This document shows, one piece after another, positions 5,758 through 16,757 of a stretch of 64,000 bases of DNA (within the stretch, counting starts at the first letter, position 1; the number at the start of each line of letters is the position of its first letter). The DNA comes from Streptomyces sp. CB03234 (lineage in GTDB: Bacteria; Actinomycetota; Actinomycetes; Streptomycetales; Streptomycetaceae). Location of the stretch: assembly GCF_001905885.1 (NCBI RefSeq), contig NZ_LIYH01000001.1, positions 62,001 to 126,000 on the forward strand, read 5' to 3'. The notes under the pieces are model-generated. The model was not told the origin of the DNA. It was given only the letters and a program-made list of their open reading frames with translations, and did no database searches. The position numbers and the translations under genes were made by a program.

Positions 5758-6125
5758 GGGGATGATCGGTTTCGACAGCGGATGTCGAAGCAGGGGAAGC
5801 GTGTCGAGGAAGCGGCAATGATCTCGTAAACCATATGTCGCAAAAAATAATCGCCAACACCAAGCGCGATTCCTTCGCCCTCGCTGCCTAAGTAGCGAGC
5901 TTGCGAAGTGTCAGCCCGGGGCTGTTCCCGACCCGGATCCTGGCATCAGCTAGGGAACTAAACCTCTAGACCCGGTCACGGGGTGCAGAGGGAAACCAAA
6001 CAGTGACTGAGCCCGTCGGAGACTTGTCCGCGTGATCTCCGGGGCCGAGAAAATCGCAGCGGACTGCACACGGAGAAGCCCTGATTCTGCACCGTTGGAC
6101 GCGGGTTCGATTCCCGCCATCTCCA
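5758..6125 (+). ncRNA. ssrA: Transfer-messenger RNA (tmRNA)
   Basis: The RNA is about 368 nt. The 5' GGGGATG (5758-5764) pairs over 7 bp with CATCTCC (6118-6124), giving the tRNA-like acceptor stem with discriminator A6125; CCA is not encoded. The T-arm is GCGGGTTCGATTCCCGC near the 3' end. The resume and tag frame is 5853-5891, encoding ANTKRDSFALAA and a TAA stop, and ends in the usual ALAA degron read by ClpXP. The middle contains pseudoknot-forming G/C blocks. tmRNA with SmpB rescues stalled ribosomes and tags nascent chains. The tag is 12 residues, shorter than the longer one I remember for S. coelicolor. Confidence 0.97.
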
Positions 6126-6140
6126 CTCATCCCATGTGGG

Positions 6141-6187
6141 CAAAGACCCTCTGACCTGCGAAAACTTCGCCAGGGCAGGGGGCTTTG
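6141..6187 (+). terminator. Probable ssrA terminator
   Basis: An imperfect hairpin starts with CAAAG (6141-6145) and ends with CTTTG (6183-6187). The pairing between them is CCCTCTGACCTG against CAGGGCAGGGGG, with mismatches. It begins 15 nt after the mature 3' end of tmRNA. Confidence 0.6.
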
Positions 6188-6276
6188 TCATGTCGTGGCA
6201 GCACGGCGGGTCAAACGGGACTGAGCTGCGTGCCCAGTGCGGCGGGCAACCCTGCTCGCCCGCGGTCACCGGTAGC

Positions 6277-6534
6277 TCAGTAGTGATACCGGGCCTTGAG
6301 GATCTTCACTTCCTTCTCGTCCGCCCGGTACACGAGCCGGTGCTCGTCGTCGATGCGCCGGGACCAGTAGCCCGACAGGCCGCCCTTCAGGGCTTCGGGC
6401 TTGCCGATGCCGGTGAACGGGTCGCGCTGGATCTCGCCGATCAGGCGAGTGATCCGTCGCGCCATCTTCCGGTCCGAGGCGAGCCAGAACAGGAAGTCCT
6501 CCCAGCCGTCGGGGTCGAAGTGAACGCTCCTCAC
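6277..6534 (-). CDS. yoeB: YoeB-family ribosome-dependent mRNA interferase toxin
   Basis: This 85-aa toxin of the RelE/YoeB fold cleaves mRNA in the ribosomal A site. It reads [23 protein letters not shown] and ends ILKARYHY. The C-terminal His-Tyr pair is the YoeB signature, and the internal Glu and Arg of [15 protein letters not shown] and [11 protein letters not shown] are in the expected positions for the E46/R65/H83 catalytic set. The ATG overlaps the antitoxin stop by 4 nt (6531-6534), so the pair is translationally coupled. The pair lies next to ssrA, a common place for insertions, but I see no integrase. Confidence 0.93.
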
Positions 6535-6806
6535 TCCTCGCCCCCGGCCATCTCCCTCAGTTCATCCATGGTCGTGGCGATCGTGGGCGCGCTCGCGCGG
6601 TCCCGGGCGACGGCCTCCATCAGGCGCTTGGCGTTCTCGGGGGAACGCAGCAGGTAGACGGTCTCCTGCCACGAATCGTAGTCGTCGGCGGACATGAGGA
6701 CGGCGTCGCCGCTCTTGGAGCTGATCCGCACGGGGGTGTGATCGTTGTTGACGCGCTCGATGAGCGGGAACAGCGTGGCCCTGGCTTCGCTGGCGCTTAT
6801 GGACAT
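6531..6806 (-). CDS. yefM: YefM/Phd-family antitoxin
   Basis: The 91-aa antitoxin starts at ATG 6806, 8 nt after AGGAG on the minus strand. The ORF could be extended to 6896, but the MSISASEAR start is the family N-terminus. The Phd/YefM DNA-binding domain is [22 protein letters not shown]...[21 protein letters not shown]. The C-terminal part ([14 protein letters not shown]...[10 protein letters not shown]) would wrap and inhibit YoeB. The protein should also autorepress the operon from repeats upstream. Confidence 0.92.
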
Positions 6807-6862
6807 GGCGGTCAAACTCCTGTCTCGATAGTACGGGTCTACGGTACCGCACTCGTACCGGA
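6807..6862 (-). promoter_or_regulatory. Promoter/operator of the yefM-yoeB operon
   Basis: On the minus strand a TACTAT -10-like box stands 6 nt before AGGAG. Around it are three GTAC-centred elements (GGTACG, GGTACC, CGTACT) at roughly helical spacing, plausible half-sites for YefM autoregulation. The decamer GTGCGGTACC also occurs in the operator of the second toxin-antitoxin pair at 44200. Confidence 0.5.
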
Positions 6863-9284: not shown

Positions 9285-10592
9285 GTGCGCTACATTCATG
9301 GTCCGGGTGCAGTGTGGTGGGGGCGCTCCGGCAGGGTGGGGGCCCGGTCCGGCGCGAGTACCCAGATGTTCCGTGTGCGCACCCTTGGTCCATTCAGTGG
9401 GGGATGTGCGTACAAAGTGGACAATTGGCGAGAAGGTGCCCGAGATGGGCACCAGAATGAGCCACTCGACAGCACCGTCCAAGTGGACAGCCTGAGCGCG
9501 TTCGACGCGTTCGACGCCTTTGGGCGTCGGGGTGACGGTGCCGGACTCCAGCCCGACGGCCATGGACACCAGGCCGGTACGCCTGGATACCAGGCCGACC
9601 CGCACGGCTACCACGCCGACGGCCTCGAACCCCACGACCCGGGCTACCGGACCGGCGGTTCCGGCTACGCGGCCGACGGGCCGGGCTACGCCGCCGATGG
9701 CTCCGGCTATCGCACCGACGGTTCCGGGCACGCGGCCGACGAGCTGGGCTACCGCGCCGACGGTTCGGGGCACGCGGCCGGTGACGGGTTCGGACACCAG
9801 CCCGGCGACTTCGGCCTCGGCCATGAGGACGAGACCATCGCCTACCGGGCCGACAGCCTCGGCCTGGAGCCCGGTGGCCCGGAGTTCCAGACCGCCCAGC
9901 TCCCGGCCGTGACCGCCACCGCCACCCCCACCGTGGCCGCGACCGTCCCGGGACCGGCGTCCGTACCCGCGTCCGCGCCGACGGAGCAGGAGCCGTCCGA
10001 CGGGCCGGTGTTCGTCGACGAGAGCGGCCGCCGCAGCAAGAAGCTCCGCAAGCTCGGCTGGGTGCTGGCGACCGCGTGCGCGGTGTACGCCATCACGCTC
10101 GTCGTCGCGGTGATCGGCGGCAACTCCGCCGCGCCCTGGCTGCTCATACCCGGCCCCGCCGACGAGAAGAAGACCGAGACCACCCGGGTCGAGCCCGTGC
10201 CGAGCACCAGCGAGGCGCCCAGGGACGACACCGGCGGGGACGTCCCCGACTCCCCGGCGCCCACCGACTCCACGGGCGCGGTCATCCCGCAGCCCGCCGA
10301 CGGCGCCTCGCAGGGCGTGTCCGCCACCCCCCGCCCCGGCGAGTCCTCGGCGCCGGACGTCACGCCCAGCCGTGAAACCGGCGGCGGCCCGGACGACGAA
10401 AAGCCCGGCAACAGGCCCACCGTGTCCCGGCCCACCGACGACGGCGCCACCCGTCAGCCGCCGCCCGTCACCCCGCCTCAGACGGCGAACCCGGACCCCA
10501 CGGACACGCCGACGACTCCCACGGAAGAACCCACCGACCCGCCGGTCGAAGAAAGCGGCGGTCAGCCCATGGCCGCGGAAGGCGCACAGTAA
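9285..10592 (+). CDS. matA: MatA, membrane protein of the exopolysaccharide (mat) operon
   Basis: The ORF from GTG 9285 gives 435 aa, but the start is uncertain. Codons before about 9480 have poor third-position GC, so translation may really begin at GTG 9417 or GTG 9483. The N-terminal part is cytoplasmic, rich in Gly/Tyr/His/Asp with repeated GYxADG and GHAADG units. A basic patch (GRRSKKLRKLG) precedes one TM helix (VLATACAVYAITLVVAVIGG). The outside tail of about 150 residues is rich in Pro/Thr/Ser. The stop codon abuts the matB ATG directly. In S. coelicolor the matAB pair is needed for pellet formation and for a poly-beta-1,6-GlcNAc-like polymer. The assignment here rests on position next to matB and on topology. 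Its biochemical role is unknown; a synthase partner or wall-spanning guide is plausible. Confidence 0.72.
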   Translation: MRYIHGPGAVWWGRSGRVGARSGASTQMFRVRTLGPFSGGCAYKVDNWREGARDGHQNEPLDSTVQVDSLSAFDAFDAFGRRGDGAGLQPDGHGHQAGTPGYQADPHGYHADGLEPHDPGYRTGGSGYAADGPGYAADGSGYRTDGSGHAADELGYRADGSGHAAGDGFGHQPGDFGLGHEDETIAYRADSLGLEPGGPEFQTAQLPAVTATATPTVAATVPGPASVPASAPTEQEPSDGPVFVDESGRRSKKLRKLGWVLATACAVYAITLVVAVIGGNSAAPWLLIPGPADEKKTETTRVEPVPSTSEAPRDDTGGDVPDSPAPTDSTGAVIPQPADGASQGVSATPRPGESSAPDVTPSRETGGGPDDEKPGNRPTVSRPTDDGATRQPPPVTPPQTANPDPTDTPTTPTEEPTDPPVEESGGQPMAAEGAQ

Positions 10593-12779
10593 ATGACAAC
10601 CTCAGGCAGACGGCGCGCCAAGAAGATGCGCGCCGTCCGGCGCAGGCTGCCCATGCGCTATCTGCTGCCCTCGGTCTTCCTGGTCGCACTCTTCGCGATG
10701 CTGATGCTGCGCGGCTATGTGCACAACGAGATCCAGCCCGATCACCGCATCCGGCTCCTCGAAGACCGCGACCAAGTGCCCCCGGCCATGCACAAGGGCG
10801 GCCCGGTCATCGACGCCCGCGACCCGGAGAAGCCCGTCAGTCTGAACGTCCCGAACGACAAGATCGTTCTGACCTTCGACGACGGCCCGGACCCGGTCTG
10901 GACGCCCAAGGTCCTCGACCAGCTGAAGGAGCACGACGCCCGCGCGGTCTTCTTCGTCACCGGCGCCATGACCGCCCGCCACCCCGACCTGGTCGAGCGG
11001 ATGGTGAACGAGGGCCACGAGGTGGGCCTGCACACCTTCAACCACCCCGACCTGTCCCTCCAGTCGCAGGAGCGCATCGACTGGGAGCTGTCCCAGAACC
11101 AGATGGCGCTCGCGGGCGCGTCGGGAGTCCGCTCCTCCCTCTTCCGCGCGCCGTACTCGAACTTCGTCTGGCACTTGGACAACAAGAACTGGGACCTGAT
11201 CAAGTACGCCGGCAGCCGCGGCTACATCGCGGCGTTCAACGACACCGACAGCCACGACTGGCGACGGCAGGGCGTCGACAAGATCGTCAAGAACGCCACG
11301 CCGAAGCCCGGCAAGGGCGCGATCGTCCTCATGCACGACTCCGGCGGCAACCGCGAGCAGACGGTCGCCGCACTCGCCCGCTTCCTGCCGCAGCAGAAGG
11401 CGAAGGGCTACGAGTTCACCACGCTCACCGAGGCCCTCGGAGCGCCCAGCGCGCACACCGAGGTCAGCGGCATGGAGCTGTGGAAGGGCAAGGCGTTCGT
11501 CTACGCCGTCGGCATCTCCGAGAACATCACCGGCGTCCTGGTGGGCGGCCTCGCGATCGTCGGCGTCCTCGTCATCGGACGCTTCGGCCTGATGCTCGTC
11601 CTCGCCTTCGCGCACGCCCGCAAGGTCCGCCGCCGCCGCTTCCGCTGGGGCCCTCCCGTCACCGAACCGGTCACCGTGCTGGTCCCGGCGTACAACGAGA
11701 AGGAGTGCATCGAGAACACGGTCCGCTCGCTGATGGCGAGTGACCATCCGGTCGAGGTCATCGTCATCGACGACGGGTCCTCGGACGGCACCGCCGACAT
11801 CGTCGAGCGGATGTGGCTGCCCAACGTACGCGTCGTCCGCCAGGAGAACTCCGGGAAGCCCGCCGCCCTCAACAACGGCATCGCGCACGCCAGCCACGAC
11901 ATCATCGTGATGATGGACGGCGACACGGTCTTCGAGCCGTCCACCGTCCGCCAGCTGGTGCAGCCCTTCGGCGACCAGCGCGTCGGCGCGGTCGCCGGCA
12001 ACGCCAAGGTCGGCAACCGCGACACCCTCATCGGCGCCTGGCAGCACATCGAGTACGTGATGGGCTTCAACCTCGACCGCCGCATGTACGACGTGCTGCG
12101 CTGCATGCCCACCATCCCGGGTGCGGTCGGCGCCTTCCGCCGTACCGCTCTGGAGCGGGTGGGCGGCATGAGCGAGGACACCCTCGCCGAGGACACCGAC
12201 ATCACCATGGCCATCCACCGCGACGGCTGGCGCGTCGTGTACGCGGAGAACGCCCGCGCCTGGACCGAGGCCCCCGAGTCAGTCCAGCAGCTGTGGTCCC
12301 AGCGCTACCGCTGGAGCTACGGCACCATGCAGGCCATCTGGAAGCACCGCGGCGCCGTGTTCGACCGCGGCCCCTCCGGCCGCTTCGGCCGCGTCGGCCT
12401 GCCGCTGGTCTCCCTCTTCATGGTGATCACACCGCTGCTCGCGCCGCTCATCGACGTCTTCCTGCTGTACGGCCTGATCTTCGGCCCCACCCAGAAGACG
12501 ATCCTGGCGTGGCTGGGCGTCCTCCTGGTGCAAGCGGTGTGCGCGGCGTACGCCTTCCGGCTCGACAAGGAGAAGATGACCCACCTCATCTCCCTGCCGC
12601 TCCAGCAGATCCTCTACCGGCAGCTGATGTACGTCGTGCTGCTCCAGTCCTGGATCACCGCTCTCACCGGCGGCCGCTTGCGCTGGCAGAAACTGCGCCG
12701 TACCGGGGTCGTGGAGGCACCCGGCTCCATTCCCACGCAGCGTGCCTCCCACAGTGACGATCGGAGCGCGGTCGGATGA
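10593..12779 (+). CDS. matB: MatB, bifunctional polysaccharide deacetylase / glycosyltransferase 2
   Basis: The protein has 728 aa and its ATG lies immediately after the matA stop. An N-terminal TM (residues about 21-39) leads to an extracytoplasmic NodB-type deacetylase (about 85-285) with metal/catalytic motifs TFDDGPDP (D96/D97) and HTFNH (147-151). A TM region (about 300-345) returns to a cytoplasmic GT2 domain with PAYNE (Y367), DDGSSDG (D393/D394), DGD (442-444), the EDTD acceptor site (533-536) and QRYRW (570-574). Several TM helices follow (about 605-690). This set matches processive synthases such as IcaA/PgaC, fused to a PgaB/IcaB-like deacetylase. The predicted product is partially deacetylated poly-beta-1,6-N-acetylglucosamine on the hyphal surface. 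Confidence 0.95.
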   Translation: MTTSGRRRAKKMRAVRRRLPMRYLLPSVFLVALFAMLMLRGYVHNEIQPDHRIRLLEDRDQVPPAMHKGGPVIDARDPEKPVSLNVPNDKIVLTFDDGPDPVWTPKVLDQLKEHDARAVFFVTGAMTARHPDLVERMVNEGHEVGLHTFNHPDLSLQSQERIDWELSQNQMALAGASGVRSSLFRAPYSNFVWHLDNKNWDLIKYAGSRGYIAAFNDTDSHDWRRQGVDKIVKNATPKPGKGAIVLMHDSGGNREQTVAALARFLPQQKAKGYEFTTLTEALGAPSAHTEVSGMELWKGKAFVYAVGISENITGVLVGGLAIVGVLVIGRFGLMLVLAFAHARKVRRRRFRWGPPVTEPVTVLVPAYNEKECIENTVRSLMASDHPVEVIVIDDGSSDGTADIVERMWLPNVRVVRQENSGKPAALNNGIAHASHDIIVMMDGDTVFEPSTVRQLVQPFGDQRVGAVAGNAKVGNRDTLIGAWQHIEYVMGFNLDRRMYDVLRCMPTIPGAVGAFRRTALERVGGMSEDTLAEDTDITMAIHRDGWRVVYAENARAWTEAPESVQQLWSQRYRWSYGTMQAIWKHRGAVFDRGPSGRFGRVGLPLVSLFMVITPLLAPLIDVFLLYGLIFGPTQKTILAWLGVLLVQAVCAAYAFRLDKEKMTHLISLPLQQILYRQLMYVVLLQSWITALTGGRLRWQKLRRTGVVEAPGSIPTQRASHSDDRSAVG

Positions 12780-14398
12780 CGGGCAATTACACGGGCGGGT
12801 CCTACGACGACCGTTACGAGGCCTGGCCGCACGAGCGGTCCGGGGCGGACGACGCGACGCAGCCGTACCCGCCGACCGCACCGGAGGCGGACCACTTCGC
12901 GCCCTTCGGAACGACGCACCACACCCCGCCGCACGCGCACTTCGCCTCGGAACCGGATCCGTTCGCGTCCGCCACGACGGAGCGGGCGCCGCAGACGTAC
13001 CCGTCGTACGAACAGGAACCCGGCTTCCCTTCCGTGGAACCGGACCCCTTCACCCAGCCCTACGGGCAGCCCTACGCGCAACCCGGCGGCCAGACCTGGA
13101 CGGCGCCCCAGCAGCCGGCCTACGAGGCCGCTCACCCGTCGGCCTCCGCGACCCTCACCGCGCCCGGCACCGTCCCTCGGGTGGAGCCCGAGCCCGCCCC
13201 CGCCGCCGAAGCCGCCGAAGCCGCCGAAGCCGCCGAAGCCGCGCCGAAGAGGCCCGGCCGCGACCGGTACTTCGACCTGCTGCGGGCGCTCGCCCTCTTC
13301 CGAGTGGTGCTCTACCACCTGACCGGCTGGATGTGGCTCCCGCTGGTCTTCCCGTCGATGGGCGTCATGTTCGCCCTCGCGGGCAACCTGATGGCGCGCT
13401 CCCTCAAGCGCCCGCCCGGCCAGGTCATCAAGAGCCGGGTCCGGCGCCTGCTGCCCCCGCTGTGGGCCGCCGGTGCCGTCGGCGTGACCGGCATGCTGGT
13501 GCAGGGCTGGGGCCCGGCGGAGGGGGAGGACACCCTCACCTGGTGGCTGGAGCTGCTGTTCTGGGTCCTGCCGCTCAGCGACCCGCCCAACGCCGCCGAG
13601 CTGGCCGGTGTCCCCGGCATCCTGCCCGGGACCTGGGCCGAGCCCTTCGCCGGCCCCCTGTGGTACATCCGCGCCTACCTCTGGTTCGTCCTGCTGTCGC
13701 CGCTCTTCCTGGCGGCCCTGCGCAAGCAGCCGTGGGTGACGATCGCCGCGCCGCTCGTGCTGATGGCCGCGCTGAATTTCGGCTACCTCCAGGCCGCCGA
13801 GGAGATCGCCCCGATCCTGTACGGCATCGGCGAGTTCGGCGCCTGCTGGATCCTCGGCATGGCGCACCAGGAGGGCGTCCTGAAGCGCCTGCCCAACTAC
13901 GTGATCCCGTCCATCGCGCCGTTCATCATGGGCTTCGGCATCTGGTGGGCCGTCGATCACGGGCTGAGCGCCGAGAACCAGCTGGGGAACATGCCGTTCG
14001 CCTCCGCCTTCTGGGGCTTCGGGTTCGTCCTCCTGCTGCTGCACTTCAGCCCGTCGTGGTCCGAGTGGCCGCGCCTGCTGGAGCGCTTCGACGGCGCCAT
14101 CACGCTGCTCAACTCGCGTGCCGTGACCATCTACCTCTGGCACAACGTCTGCATCGCCATCGCCGTGACGATGTGGAACCGGCTGTGGTCCCTGGAAGTG
14201 ATGTGGCGCGACCTGCCGTGGCTGATGAACAGCCCATGGCCGACCCTGATCTTCAGCTGGTCGTTGATCGCCTACTGCATTCTGATGTTCGGCTGGCTGG
14301 AGGACGTGGCCGCCAAGCGGCGGCCGAGGCTGTGGCCGTCCGGCGCGACCACGCGGAACAACGCGACCACGCGGAACAAGAAGGGCCTTGTCGCATGA
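12776..14398 (+). CDS. Acyltransferase 3 family membrane protein
   Basis: The protein is 540 aa and overlaps matB by 4 nt (ATGA), so it is translationally coupled. Residues 1-160 are hydrophilic and low-complexity (YPPTAPEADH, QPYGQPYAQPGG, AAEAAEAAEAA). From about residue 163 (RDRYFDLLRALALFRVVLYH) to the end is an acyltransferase-3 domain with about ten TM helices; the early Arg and the ALFRVVLYH motif are typical. The C-terminus is basic with an NNATTRN repeat. Position suggests an IcaC/WafG-like role: O-acylation (for example succinylation) or export of the MatB polymer. Substrate is inferred from context only. Confidence 0.85.
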   Translation: MTGNYTGGSYDDRYEAWPHERSGADDATQPYPPTAPEADHFAPFGTTHHTPPHAHFASEPDPFASATTERAPQTYPSYEQEPGFPSVEPDPFTQPYGQPYAQPGGQTWTAPQQPAYEAAHPSASATLTAPGTVPRVEPEPAPAAEAAEAAEAAEAAPKRPGRDRYFDLLRALALFRVVLYHLTGWMWLPLVFPSMGVMFALAGNLMARSLKRPPGQVIKSRVRRLLPPLWAAGAVGVTGMLVQGWGPAEGEDTLTWWLELLFWVLPLSDPPNAAELAGVPGILPGTWAEPFAGPLWYIRAYLWFVLLSPLFLAALRKQPWVTIAAPLVLMAALNFGYLQAAEEIAPILYGIGEFGACWILGMAHQEGVLKRLPNYVIPSIAPFIMGFGIWWAVDHGLSAENQLGNMPFASAFWGFGFVLLLLHFSPSWSEWPRLLERFDGAITLLNSRAVTIYLWHNVCIAIAVTMWNRLWSLEVMWRDLPWLMNSPWPTLIFSWSLIAYCILMFGWLEDVAAKRRPRLWPSGATTRNNATTRNKKGLVA

Positions 14399-15288
14399 TG
14401 CTGCGTGCCAGGTGGCTGCTGCTCGCGGTCGCCCCCCTCCTCGTCCTCACCATCTTCGTCGCCACCCCCACCCCGAAGCCGGCGGATCAGCAGGCGGCCG
14501 GTCAGTCGGAGAGCCAGGGCGCCGCCAAGCGGGCGGAGGAGGAGCTGGAGTCGGCCGAGGACCTGCTCGCCAAGATGCCGCCCGGCCTCGCGGCCCCGGA
14601 CAAGAAGGAGCTGGCCCACCAGATCCTCGGCTCCGCCATGAACTCCACGAAGGACTGGCGCACGCTGTACGGCCACATCGCGGACAGCGACGACGGCGAC
14701 GGCTACTGCGGTGGCGTGATCGGCTTCTGCTCCGGCACCAAGGACATGCTGGTCCTGGTCGAGTCGTACACCAAGGAGCACCCGGACAACGGCCTGGCCG
14801 AGTACGTAACCGCGCTGCGCGCGGTCAACGGCACGGACTCGCACGAGGGCCTGGGCGCTGGCTTCATGGAAGCGTGGCGGGAGGAGAGCGAGAAGCCCGC
14901 CTTCCGCAAGGCCCAGGACAGGGTCCGGGACACGATGTACTTCACGTCGGCCGTCGACCTCGCCAAGCTGGACGGCCTGGGCACGCTCGGCCAGTTCATC
15001 TACTACGACGCGATGGTCTTCCACGGCCCCGGCATCGACAAGAACGGCTTCTACGAGATCCGCGAGCGGGTCCGGGCCGCCCACAAGACCAAGGCCGAGG
15101 GCGGCAAGGAGAAGGCGTACCTCGACGCGTTCCTCGACGAATGCCGCAAGGTGATGCTGGAGGCGAACCCCGACCAGGACACCAGCCGCATCGACACCAC
15201 CCAGCGCGCCTTCCTGCGCGACGGCAACCTCACCCTGAAGACGCCCCTGGTCTGGCAGATGTACGGGCAGACGTTCCGCGTGTCGTAA
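14395..15288 (+). CDS. GH46 chitosanase-like protein with catalytic Glu replaced by Met
   Basis: The protein is 297 aa and overlaps the acyltransferase by 4 nt. An N-terminal hydrophobic segment (WLLLAVAPLLVLTIFVA) is a signal peptide or anchor. From residue about 70 it follows chitosanase GH46 closely: KKELAHQILGSAMNSTKDW, DGDGYCGGVIGFCSGTKDM, LGQFIYYDAMVFHGPG, DTSRIDTTQRAFL. Aligned by eye with Streptomyces N174 chitosanase, the general acid Glu22 (SSAENSS) is Met82 here (GSAMNST). The second acid, Asp40, is kept (D100 in DSDDGDGY). The protein may be a non-catalytic glycan-binding or scaffold protein, or act by a different mechanism, on the MatB polymer. It is the last gene of the mat operon. 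Confidence 0.85.
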   Translation: MMLRARWLLLAVAPLLVLTIFVATPTPKPADQQAAGQSESQGAAKRAEEELESAEDLLAKMPPGLAAPDKKELAHQILGSAMNSTKDWRTLYGHIADSDDGDGYCGGVIGFCSGTKDMLVLVESYTKEHPDNGLAEYVTALRAVNGTDSHEGLGAGFMEAWREESEKPAFRKAQDRVRDTMYFTSAVDLAKLDGLGTLGQFIYYDAMVFHGPGIDKNGFYEIRERVRAAHKTKAEGGKEKAYLDAFLDECRKVMLEANPDQDTSRIDTTQRAFLRDGNLTLKTPLVWQMYGQTFRVS

Positions 15289-15325
15289 AGCCTCACCGTC
15301 GTCTCAGACGGCACGTGAGAGCAAG

Positions 15326-15362
15326 GTTTCAGCCCGGTCACGTCATATGACCGGGCTGAAAC
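15326..15362. promoter_or_regulatory. 15-bp palindrome: mat terminator and candidate GlnR operator of narK
   Basis: GTTTCAGCCCGGTCA (15326-15340) is exactly complementary to 15348-15362, with a 7-nt loop. It would terminate the mat operon 37 nt after its stop. Each arm also reads as a GlnR box gTnAc-n6-GaAAc: GTGAC-n6-GAAAC on the minus strand (15341-15326) and ATGAC-n6-GAAAC on the plus strand (15347-15362). It lies 64 nt before narK, which is a nitrate gene of the type GlnR controls. Confidence 0.65.
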
Positions 15363-15425
15363 GCATCCTCCCTAGCGTCGGTCCTGACGGGATTCAGGAG
15401 CTGACAGCAGCAGTGGAGGTACGCG

Positions 15426-16757
15426 ATGAGCGGCCGGTGGATCGAGCAGTGGGACCCTGAGGACGAGACCTTCTGGCGGGAGAAGGGGGAGAAGATCGCC
15501 AAGCGGAATCTGCTCTTCTCCGTCTTCTCCGAGCACATCGGGTTCTCCATCTGGTCGCTGTGGTCCGTGATGGTCCTGTTCATGGGCCCGCAGTACGGCA
15601 TCGACCCGGCCGGCAAGTTCGCCCTGATCGCCGTGGCGACGCTGGTCGGCGCCATGATCCGGGTCCCGTACACCTTCGCCGTCGCCCGCTTCGGCGGCCG
15701 CAACTGGACGATCTTCAGCGCGCTGCTGCTCCTGCTGCCCACGGGCGCCGCGTACGCCGTCATGGAGCCGGGCACGTCGTACAGCACCTTCCTGCTGGTC
15801 GCCGCGCTCACCGGCGTGGGCGGCGGCAACTTCGCCTCCTCGATGACGAACATCAACGCCTTCTTCCCGCTCCACAAGAAGGGCTGGGCCCTCGGCCTCA
15901 ACGCGGGCGGCGGCAACATCGGCGTCCCCGTCGTCCAGCTGGTCGGCCTGCTCATCATCGGTACGGCAGGGGCCGCCCAGCCGCGGATCGTCCTCGGCAT
16001 CTACATCCCGCTGATCGTGATCGCCGCCGTGTGCGCCGCGCTCCACATGGACAACCTGGCGCCCGTGAAGAACGACACCGGCGCCGTCAAGGAGGCCGTC
16101 AAGGACGCCCACACCTGGATCATGGCGTTCCTCTACATCGGCACCTTCGGCTCGTTCATCGGCTACAGCTTCGCCTTCGGCCTGGTCCTGCAGACCCAGT
16201 TCGGGCGTACGCCGCTCCAGGCCGCGTCCCTCACCTTCATCGGCCCGCTGCTCGGCTCGCTGATCCGGCCGTTCGGCGGCTCCCTCGCCGACAGGCACGG
16301 CGGCGCCCGCATCACCCTGTGGACCTTCGTCTCCATGGCCGCCGCGACCGGCGTGGTCGTCTACGCGTCCGTCATCGAGTCGCTCGCCGTCTTCCTCGTC
16401 GGCTTCATCTCCCTGTTCATCCTCAGCGGGCTCGGCAACGGCTCCACGTTCAAGATGATCCCCGCCATCTTCCAGGCCAAGGCGCACGCCTCGGGACTGG
16501 AGGGCGAGCAGGCCGACGCGTACGGACGGCGGCTGTCCGGCGCCGCGATCGGACTGATCGGGGCGATCGGCGCGATCGGCGGGCTCGGCATCAACCTGGC
16601 CTTCCGGCAGTCCTTCCAGACCGCCGGCACCGGCACCTCCGCCTTCGTCGCCTTCCTCCTCTTCTACGGTGCGTGCGTGACCGTCACCTGGGCGGTATAC
16701 CTTCGCCGCCCGGTGGAGGTCCCCGCCAAGCGGCAGCTCAGCTACTCCGAGGTGTGA
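15426..16757 (+). CDS. narK: Nitrate/nitrite transporter NarK (MFS)
   Basis: NarK is a 443-aa inner-membrane carrier for nitrate uptake and/or nitrite export. ATG 15426 has a GGAGGT site 5 nt upstream. It has twelve TM helices. The nitrate signature appears twice: GGGNFASSMTNINAFFP (first half) and GLGNGSTFKMIPAIF (second half), both typical of the NNP family. The motif LADRHGGARI is the second-half loop. It starts with SGRWIEQWDPEDETFWRE, as in other actinobacterial NarK proteins. nnaR follows after 32 nt and is likely in the same transcription unit. Confidence 0.95.
   Translation: MSGRWIEQWDPEDETFWREKGEKIAKRNLLFSVFSEHIGFSIWSLWSVMVLFMGPQYGIDPAGKFALIAVATLVGAMIRVPYTFAVARFGGRNWTIFSALLLLLPTGAAYAVMEPGTSYSTFLLVAALTGVGGGNFASSMTNINAFFPLHKKGWALGLNAGGGNIGVPVVQLVGLLIIGTAGAAQPRIVLGIYIPLIVIAAVCAALHMDNLAPVKNDTGAVKEAVKDAHTWIMAFLYIGTFGSFIGYSFAFGLVLQTQFGRTPLQAASLTFIGPLLGSLIRPFGGSLADRHGGARITLWTFVSMAAATGVVVYASVIESLAVFLVGFISLFILSGLGNGSTFKMIPAIFQAKAHASGLEGEQADAYGRRLSGAAIGLIGAIGAIGGLGINLAFRQSFQTAGTGTSAFVAFLLFYGACVTVTWAVYLRRPVEVPAKRQLSYSEV

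Follow-up and report, generated by a model that had tools for sequence, protein, structure and literature searches.

The window analysed here is a stretch of 64,000 nucleotides from Streptomyces sp. CB03234 (assembly GCF_001905885.1, contig NZ_LIYH01000001.1, positions 62,001–126,000 of the forward strand). It contains a run of four genes, namely a matA-like gene, matB, an acyltransferase gene and, as the last one, a gene for a protein of glycoside hydrolase family 46 (GH46), which is the subject of this work. An earlier, sequence-only reading of the window had described a GH46 chitosanase-like protein with Met in place of the catalytic Glu and had proposed it as a non-hydrolytic component of the Mat exopolysaccharide system, unless it acts by another route.

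The GH46-like protein and its active site

Residues were compared between a clade of ten members (the window protein and nine matches, 65–89% identical) and 110 other matches; the latter come from the best 120 of 2094 matches, and one listed row (P0003) is the window's own protein. The alignment with the N174 enzyme (1CHK) is gap-free, and N174 numbers equal the numbers of the window protein minus 60. The gene comprises the following features.

14395..15288, forward strand: GH46-like gene, open reading frame of 297 amino acids
14416..14466, forward strand: hydrophobic segment, residues 8–24, predicted signal anchor (hydropathy and motif scan of the 10 clade members)
14620..15249, forward strand: GH46 domain, residues 76–285 (PF01374 match 1–210 of 210)
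14638..14640, forward strand: ATG codon of Met82 at the general-acid position (N174 Glu22) in the 1CHK alignment
14692..14694, forward strand: Asp100 (N174 Asp40, general base), retained in 9/10 clade members, His in ISL-96
14707..14709, forward strand: Cys105 (N174 Thr45), Cys in 10/10 clade members, Thr in 110/110 other listed matches
14743..14745, forward strand: Asp117 (N174 Asp57, glucosamine recognition at subsite −2), retained in 10/10 clade members
15142..15144, forward strand: Cys250 (N174 Arg190), Cys in 10/10 clade members, Arg in 108/110 other listed matches

The protein belongs to the GH46 fold family. The whole Pfam profile is covered (E 3.9e-83, 278.7 bits against the curated cut-off of 27), and a phmmer comparison with solved structures gave 4ILY (E 2.4e-78) and 1CHK (E 2.4e-69). 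The AlphaFold2 model has a mean predicted local distance difference test (pLDDT) score of 75, with values below 50 at residues 90–113; for the canonical relative P0117, modelled with the same 55 sequences, the block means over the region of residues 90–113 (two strands) were 76 and 62. The 13 Foldseek matches at E ≤0.001 are without exception titled as GH46-type chitosanases, and the TM-score of the model against 4ILY was 0.90 by target length. The protein is the sole GH46 found in the genome of the window, and NRRL S-118 and ISL-96, the two other clade genomes searched, have one GH46 each.

All ten clade members feature an N-terminal hydrophobic stretch, with A-X-A-like motifs near its end in some, and the motif scan revealed no lipobox after it in any of them. 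In the window protein, the nearest A-X-A-like motif past the segment begins at residue 34, and the protein is predicted to be membrane-anchored on the outer face. Cleavage of the anchor is possible, because in ISL-96 an AFA motif lies directly after the segment.

Excerpts of a review (PMC4663542) describe the general acid of GH46 as Glu22, invariably Glu, and assign the positioning of the nucleophilic water to Thr45, with Ser as the one near-equal substitute named. The same excerpts place Arg190, Asp145 and Arg205 in a network behind the general acid and give Asp57 as the residue that picks glucosamine at subsite −2. According to excerpts of PMC3848431, the activity of the N174 enzyme falls drastically whichever residue takes the place of Arg42. 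The window protein lacks the general acid of an active GH46 chitosanase: Met82 occupies the position of Glu22, as the sequence-only reading had claimed. The conservation among homologs that it had called for was borne out by the alignment, with Met in nine of the ten clade members and Glu in 106 of the 110 others among the matches listed. A read error or a private mutation at Met82 is ruled out: two bases or more must change to turn a Glu codon into that of Met, and the Met is shared by other species. The tenth clade member, S. sannanensis (P0011), retains Glu22.

The second acid, D100, which had been reported as kept, indeed corresponds to Asp40, so the general base is present in the window protein; ISL-96 is devoid of both catalytic acids (Met at Glu22, His at Asp40). 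The position of Thr45, where an active enzyme has Thr or Ser, is taken by Cys105, and that of Arg42 by Asp102; Arg42 is also gone from 106 of the 110 other listed matches (Arg in 4). The statement that nearly all GH46 landmarks are kept therefore stands only in part. It applies to Asp57, Trp28, Tyr122, His150, Pro152, Asp145 and Arg205, retained in all ten clade members, and fails for Thr45, Arg42, Arg190, Tyr34 (His94 here, His throughout the clade), Glu197 (Ala257) and Asp201 (Gln261). At the counterpart of N174 position 128, Asp is found in 10/10 clade members versus Arg in 110/110 other listed matches. By alignment, the residue losses exceed those described before, as they comprise the general acid, the residue that positions the water, Arg42 and Arg190; the sugar selector is kept.

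The comparison was also extended to 212 distinct domains, of which 12 were counted as located at mat, including four unplaced clade members, and many of the other 200 are likewise unplaced. Position 22 is without an acid in 7 of these 200 rows not known to be at mat, and 5 more have Asp. A disulfide between Cys105 and Cys250 across the putatively dead site is an attractive candidate; the change of Arg190 alone is not special, because this residue is also lost in 28 of the 200 rows.

The full set of Glu, Asp, Arg and Thr occurs in 3 of the 110 listed matches, and Glu22 or Asp40 is absent in 17 of the 110. The wider GH46 subfamily of many streptomycetes looks eroded although its database name is chitosanase (e.g., L040, 5992–6906, beside gltD). 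A GH46 relative in Streptomyces ruber (L045) has Arg at the general-acid position and no matB within 6 kb.

The mat operon and the occurrence of GH46 in it

The genes and the repeat around the GH46-like gene are listed below.

9285..10592, forward strand: matA-like gene, with a hydrophobic stretch near residues 257–276 and a Pro/Thr-rich tail; directly precedes matB
10593..12779, forward strand: matB, fusion of a CE4 polysaccharide deacetylase and a GT2 synthase (PF01522, PF13641)
12776..14398, forward strand: acyltransferase-3 gene, IcaC/SCO2961-like (PF01757)
15326..15362, forward strand: 15-bp perfect inverted repeat, terminator-like, past the GH46-like gene (fold of 15289–15425, z −7.3)
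15426..16757, forward strand: major facilitator superfamily (MFS) transporter gene (PF07690)

The GH46-like gene is a member of the operon for the Mat polymer, predicted to be a poly-N-acetylglucosamine (PNAG); it closes the run that starts with matA and continues with matB and the acyltransferase gene. ATGA overlaps join matB to the acyltransferase gene and the latter to the GH46-like gene. Translational coupling to matAB and the acyltransferase had been suggested; it holds directly for the acyltransferase gene, and matAB, lying upstream in the same run, is not coupled directly. The overlap between the acyltransferase and GH46 genes is seen in three genomes, i.e., that of the window, NRRL S-118 (L032) and ISL-96 (L033). 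In the window, the unit seems to end with the GH46-like gene, because the inverted repeat comes next; the arms of the repeat are identical in NRRL S-118 and absent from ISL-96.

No Pfam family was matched by the matA-like protein, and its gene has partial homology to the matA regions of mat loci in other streptomycetes. The best NCBIfam match of MatB is PgaC/IcaA, under the cut-off of that model. The CE4 motifs of MatB are present (TFDDG at 94, HTFNHP at 147), and a partly deacetylated polymer is therefore expected. Excerpts of PMC5972031 describe that in S. lividans and S. coelicolor MatAB produces PNAG, which glues hyphae, and give beta-1,6 as the reported linkage of the Mat polymer; SCO2961 is likened to IcaC in excerpts of PMC5972031 and PMC4391728. 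The mat acyltransferase of the window (12776–14398) is 47% identical to that of ISL-96 (L033, 4673–6004), with MatB at 85%; this acyltransferase would either diverge fast or have been swapped.

The order matA-matB-acyltransferase-GH46-MFS was found in two of the 111 loci compared besides the window, NRRL S-118 (L032, 86%) and ISL-96 (L033, 65%), both with Met. For 29 loci (L003–L031), the flanks of ≤1.5 kb could reveal an adjoining acyltransferase gene but not matB, and no such acyltransferase gene was found among them. In three further clade members, the contig with the GH46 gene has the same length as the one that bears the nearest acyltransferase relative: 2,934 bp for P0005/P0123, 116,272 bp for P0009/P0125 (NPDC000229) and 288,462 bp for P0008/P0126 (NPDC045431). 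This indicates that in P0005, P0008 and P0009 the two genes share a contig, their adjacency being unproven. The placement of the clade at mat is hence direct in three members and indicated by a common contig in three; P0004, P0006, P0010 and P0011 (S. sannanensis) are unplaced.

An acyltransferase homolog follows matB in all 30 mat loci examined, including the window. In L113, L128 and L138, the MFS gene starts about 165 bp or less past the acyltransferase match, leaving no room for a GH46 gene. Most other mat loci stop too soon past the acyltransferase to judge the presence of GH46, and a count over genomes is the better measure. A search of 393 Streptomyces genomes with the S. sannanensis protein gave the window genome as the best match (67%, E 1.4e-131), followed by a match of 62% (E 1.2e-116), which marks the clade as rare. 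A strong GH46 match (E ≤1e-100 to P0011) was present in 114 genomes; matB was located in 112 of them, and in 3 of these 112 (the window genome, G024 and G405) the two genes were within 10 kb, G024 and G405 being arranged otherwise. GH46 is thus not generally conserved in mat clusters. In G418, G238 and G115, the GH46 match begins less than 5 kb from the first base of the contig, so adjacency to mat is possible there.

A second mat-adjacent lineage, origin and selection

The mat-adjacent GH46 gene of G024 and of G405 is located upstream of matA and oriented divergently.

L180 (G024), 9839–10738, divergent from matA: GH46 gene of the second lineage, beside matA/matB
L181 (G405), about 5937–6836, divergent from matA: GH46 gene of the second lineage, beside matA/matB

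The two encoded proteins are 78% identical and have Glu22 replaced by Val and Arg190 by His, with Asp40 and Thr45 retained. In a 37-row tree built with the trait columns removed, they are placed far from the Met clade, and one origin for both mat-linked groups was rejected by the approximately unbiased (AU) test (p 0.002). The same Val/His pair occurs in L027/L081 and L059, which were not found at mat. The grouping of G024 and G405 with the L027 and L059 copies under a common origin was not rejected (AU p 0.19), and therefore the loss of the acid may precede the move to mat. The occurrence of putatively dead GH46 proteins at mat loci in two separate lineages is a new finding. Both mat lineages lack the acid, against 7 of the 200 other rows (Fisher p 0.0018); this value ignores kinship and concerns lineages named after being seen, and it serves as a pointer only. 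Within the Met clade itself, a single origin of Met is not settled: the nine Met rows as one clade were not rejected (AU p 0.12), and the best tree needs two changes.

The closest relatives outside the clade, 55–67% identical among the matches listed, are gltBD-linked GH46 proteins of Streptomyces, represented in S. coelicolor by SCO2024. The flank of L040 with gltD and gltB is common to 37 of the 77 other non-mat loci. No GH46 was found in the gltD stretch (about 4.8 kb past its end) of the window, S-118 and ISL-96 genomes (L177, L178, L179). At the ISL-96 site, gltD and the rhomboid gene, which flank GH46 in L040, are both present, 187 bp apart; at the S-118 site, the von Willebrand factor A (vWA) gene was found and the rhomboid gene was not, and in the window genome neither was found. 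Because each genome has a single GH46 and none at the gltD stretch, the gene probably moved into mat, or the old copy was lost after the mat copy came.

A plasmid origin of the gene is without support, the best plasmid match being 53%. GH46 relatives, 32–35% identical to the query, occur on staphylococcal plasmids (NZ_CP118847, NZ_CP043848, NZ_CP121530, CP090925 of S. epidermidis and NZ_CP134826 of S. capitis). S. epidermidis, a bearer of such a plasmid relative, is itself a PNAG producer (ica operon).

The ratios of nonsynonymous to synonymous substitution rates (dN/dS, Nei–Gojobori) between the window and S-118 were 0.41 for the GH46 gene, 0.10 for matB, 0.11 for the acyltransferase domain and 0.16 for the MFS gene; the respective values for the window and ISL-96 were 0.56, 0.30, 0.62 and 0.21. 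The GH46-like gene is constrained, but more loosely than matB and the MFS gene. Its domain is complete in all ten clade members, and the GC-content at third codon positions (GC3) is 0.97.

Evaluation of a proposed non-hydrolytic role

The data fit a non-hydrolytic component of the mat system. At a probability of about 0.5, the protein would be a GH46 pseudoenzyme, anchored outside the membrane, which binds the glucosamine-containing Mat polymer without cutting it; we infer both the inactivity and the glycan binding from the protein sequence. MatB, as a synthase and deacetylase fusion, would make partly deacetylated PNAG, as reported for S. lividans, and the cleft of the putatively dead GH46 may hold the glucosamine residues of the emerging chain. 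The protein would then serve as a lectin at the cell surface, by which the matrix between hyphae is retained, spaced or protected. Its probable source would be a gltBD-type GH46 that was transferred to mat or re-acquired there and later became fixed as non-hydrolytic. A GH46 protein with Met for Glu, located outside the membrane and made together with the synthase, is most simply read as a polymer holder, since acid mutants of GH46 hold oligomers: the general-acid mutant of the OU01 enzyme binds hexaglucosamine (excerpts of PMC4663542), and 6LWU and 7C6D are, by their titles, complexes of an E19A mutant with glucosamine oligomers.

The earlier proposal of such a component is favoured by the acid loss in nine of the ten clade members and by operon membership in three. 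Further points for the pseudoenzyme reading are the Met82/Cys105/Cys250 pattern against the 110 other listed matches, the loss of both acids in ISL-96, the Val at Glu22 in a second mat-adjacent lineage, the single GH46 of three clade genomes with none at the gltD stretch, and the complete domain with dN/dS below 1. Several points weigh against it and against the pseudoenzyme reading. S. sannanensis, a clade member, has the Glu, the clade is rare and many mat clusters are without GH46; rows outside known mat sites also lose the acid at times (7/200) or Arg190 (28/200), and the GH46 gene evolves faster than matB. The model is weaker at residues 90–113 than that of the canonical relative. The cleft offers a mixed picture, with Asp57, Tyr122, His150 and Pro152 kept and Tyr34, Arg42, Glu197 and Asp201 changed; published cleft positions are invariant in the clade in 13 of 20 cases, against 114 of 213 for the rest of the domain (p 0.36), so that conservation of the cleft above the domain background was not found. 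Finally, the chains known from GH46 clefts are beta-1,4-linked, whereas a beta-1,6 linkage is reported for the Mat polymer. As a guess, the clade-specific changes near the −1/+1 site (Met82, His94, Cys105 and Gly106) may refit the cleft to this linkage.

The protein could still be a hydrolase or transglycosylase by another route, using Asp100 and, in place of residue 82, a different proton donor, perhaps Asp102 or Asp188. The retention of the Asp40 counterpart in 9/10 clade members, the clade-wide Asp at position 128, the Glu of S. sannanensis and an active Janthinobacterium GH46 that lacks the Asp and the Arg (excerpts of PMC4663542) agree with this. We consider it unlikely, given that ISL-96 has lost Asp40 too, that Thr45 is Cys throughout the clade where Ser is the near-equal substitute named, that Arg42, whose replacement in N174 causes a drastic drop in activity, is gone, and that the review excerpts describe the acid as invariably Glu. 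The gene could also be a relic, a GH46 of the gltBD type that landed among the mat genes and drifts without function. This would explain the higher dN/dS (0.41 vs 0.10 for matB and 0.16 for MFS, window against S-118), the rarity of the clade and the loss of catalytic residues in relatives (17 of the 110 listed). Such a relic is improbable: the domain is complete in all members with high GC3 and dN/dS below 1, the ATGA overlap is kept between orthologs about 65% identical, the two clade-specific Cys are fixed, and Glu22 is absent at mat in two separate lineages.

Streptomyces phages apparently carry active GH46. In a collection of 50,697 phage records, GH46 matches occurred in 30, all of them from Streptomyces phages, some of which have two records. 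In the four regions fetched out of these 30 (L183–L186; Ponzi, Psst4, GirlPower and TonyStarch), the GH46 domain belongs to tail-module proteins and has Glu22, Asp40, Arg42, Thr45 and Asp57 all present; in three of the four, Leu or Ile and Gly stand at Arg190/Arg205, where the pairwise alignment is uncertain. A GH46-sensitive surface glycan is therefore suggested, which is the basis of the idea that the putatively dead GH46 covers the glucosamine polymer of its own cell, so that active GH46 of phage tails or competitors would be blocked. In favour of this shielding, the host copy retains the Asp of subsite −2; we rate it as a long shot, as both the substrate of the phage domains and the competition are putative and the clade is rare among streptomycetes. 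Equally improbable is the broader idea that Streptomyces twice recruited a chitosanase to mat, each ending dead as a surface holder that shields its own glucosamine polymer from active GH46, including that of phage tails.

The pseudoenzyme reading has partial counterparts among known systems. GH46 chitosanases (CsnN174, 1CHK; SirexAA-E, 4ILY; Microbacterium OU01, 4OLT) have the same fold over the whole domain and share Asp57, Trp28, Tyr122, His150, Asp145 and Arg205, but the window protein has the general acid, Thr45, Arg42 and Arg190 replaced, a predicted anchor instead of free secretion and a place in a polysaccharide operon. The gltBD-linked proteins have a similar N-terminal hydrophobic segment and linker in the ten compared, whereas the relatives listed mostly keep Glu22 (106/110) and all keep Thr45 (110/110). 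YKL-40, a chitinase-like lectin of family GH18 in animals, is a glycosidase without the catalytic Glu that binds glycan; it may serve as a model of how the protein works, although fold and family differ. Alpha-lactalbumin keeps a lysozyme-superfamily fold without catalysis, as is supposed here, in a different family (GH22 fold) and with no role in a glycan matrix. PgaB has a hydrolase domain of its own, of a family different from GH46. The PNAG operons ica, pga and mat (IcaADBC, PgaABCD, SCO2963–2961) share the synthase, the deacetylase and an IcaC-like acyltransferase with the window, and excerpts of PMC4391728 and PMC5972031 name no GH46 member, which is the feature of the window. Among the open-licence PMC papers listed, no report was found of a GH46 protein in the mat system or, judged by titles and the start of abstracts, of inactive chitosanases of such a kind.

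Glycosidases beside polysaccharide synthases are usually seen as trimming enzymes. If the pseudoenzyme reading is true, the useful property at mat would be gripping the chain, not cutting it. The name "chitosanase", under which databases list the clade, is likely a misnomer. In a thoroughly studied enzyme family, the protein would represent a naturally occurring knockout of the general acid. It gives a testable handle on the way in which streptomycetes may keep PNAG in place between hyphae or protect it there, a matter of relevance to the formation of pellets in fermenters. The GH46 domains of phages suggest, in turn, that in the genus Streptomyces a polymer of glucosamine may act as a barrier at the cell surface.

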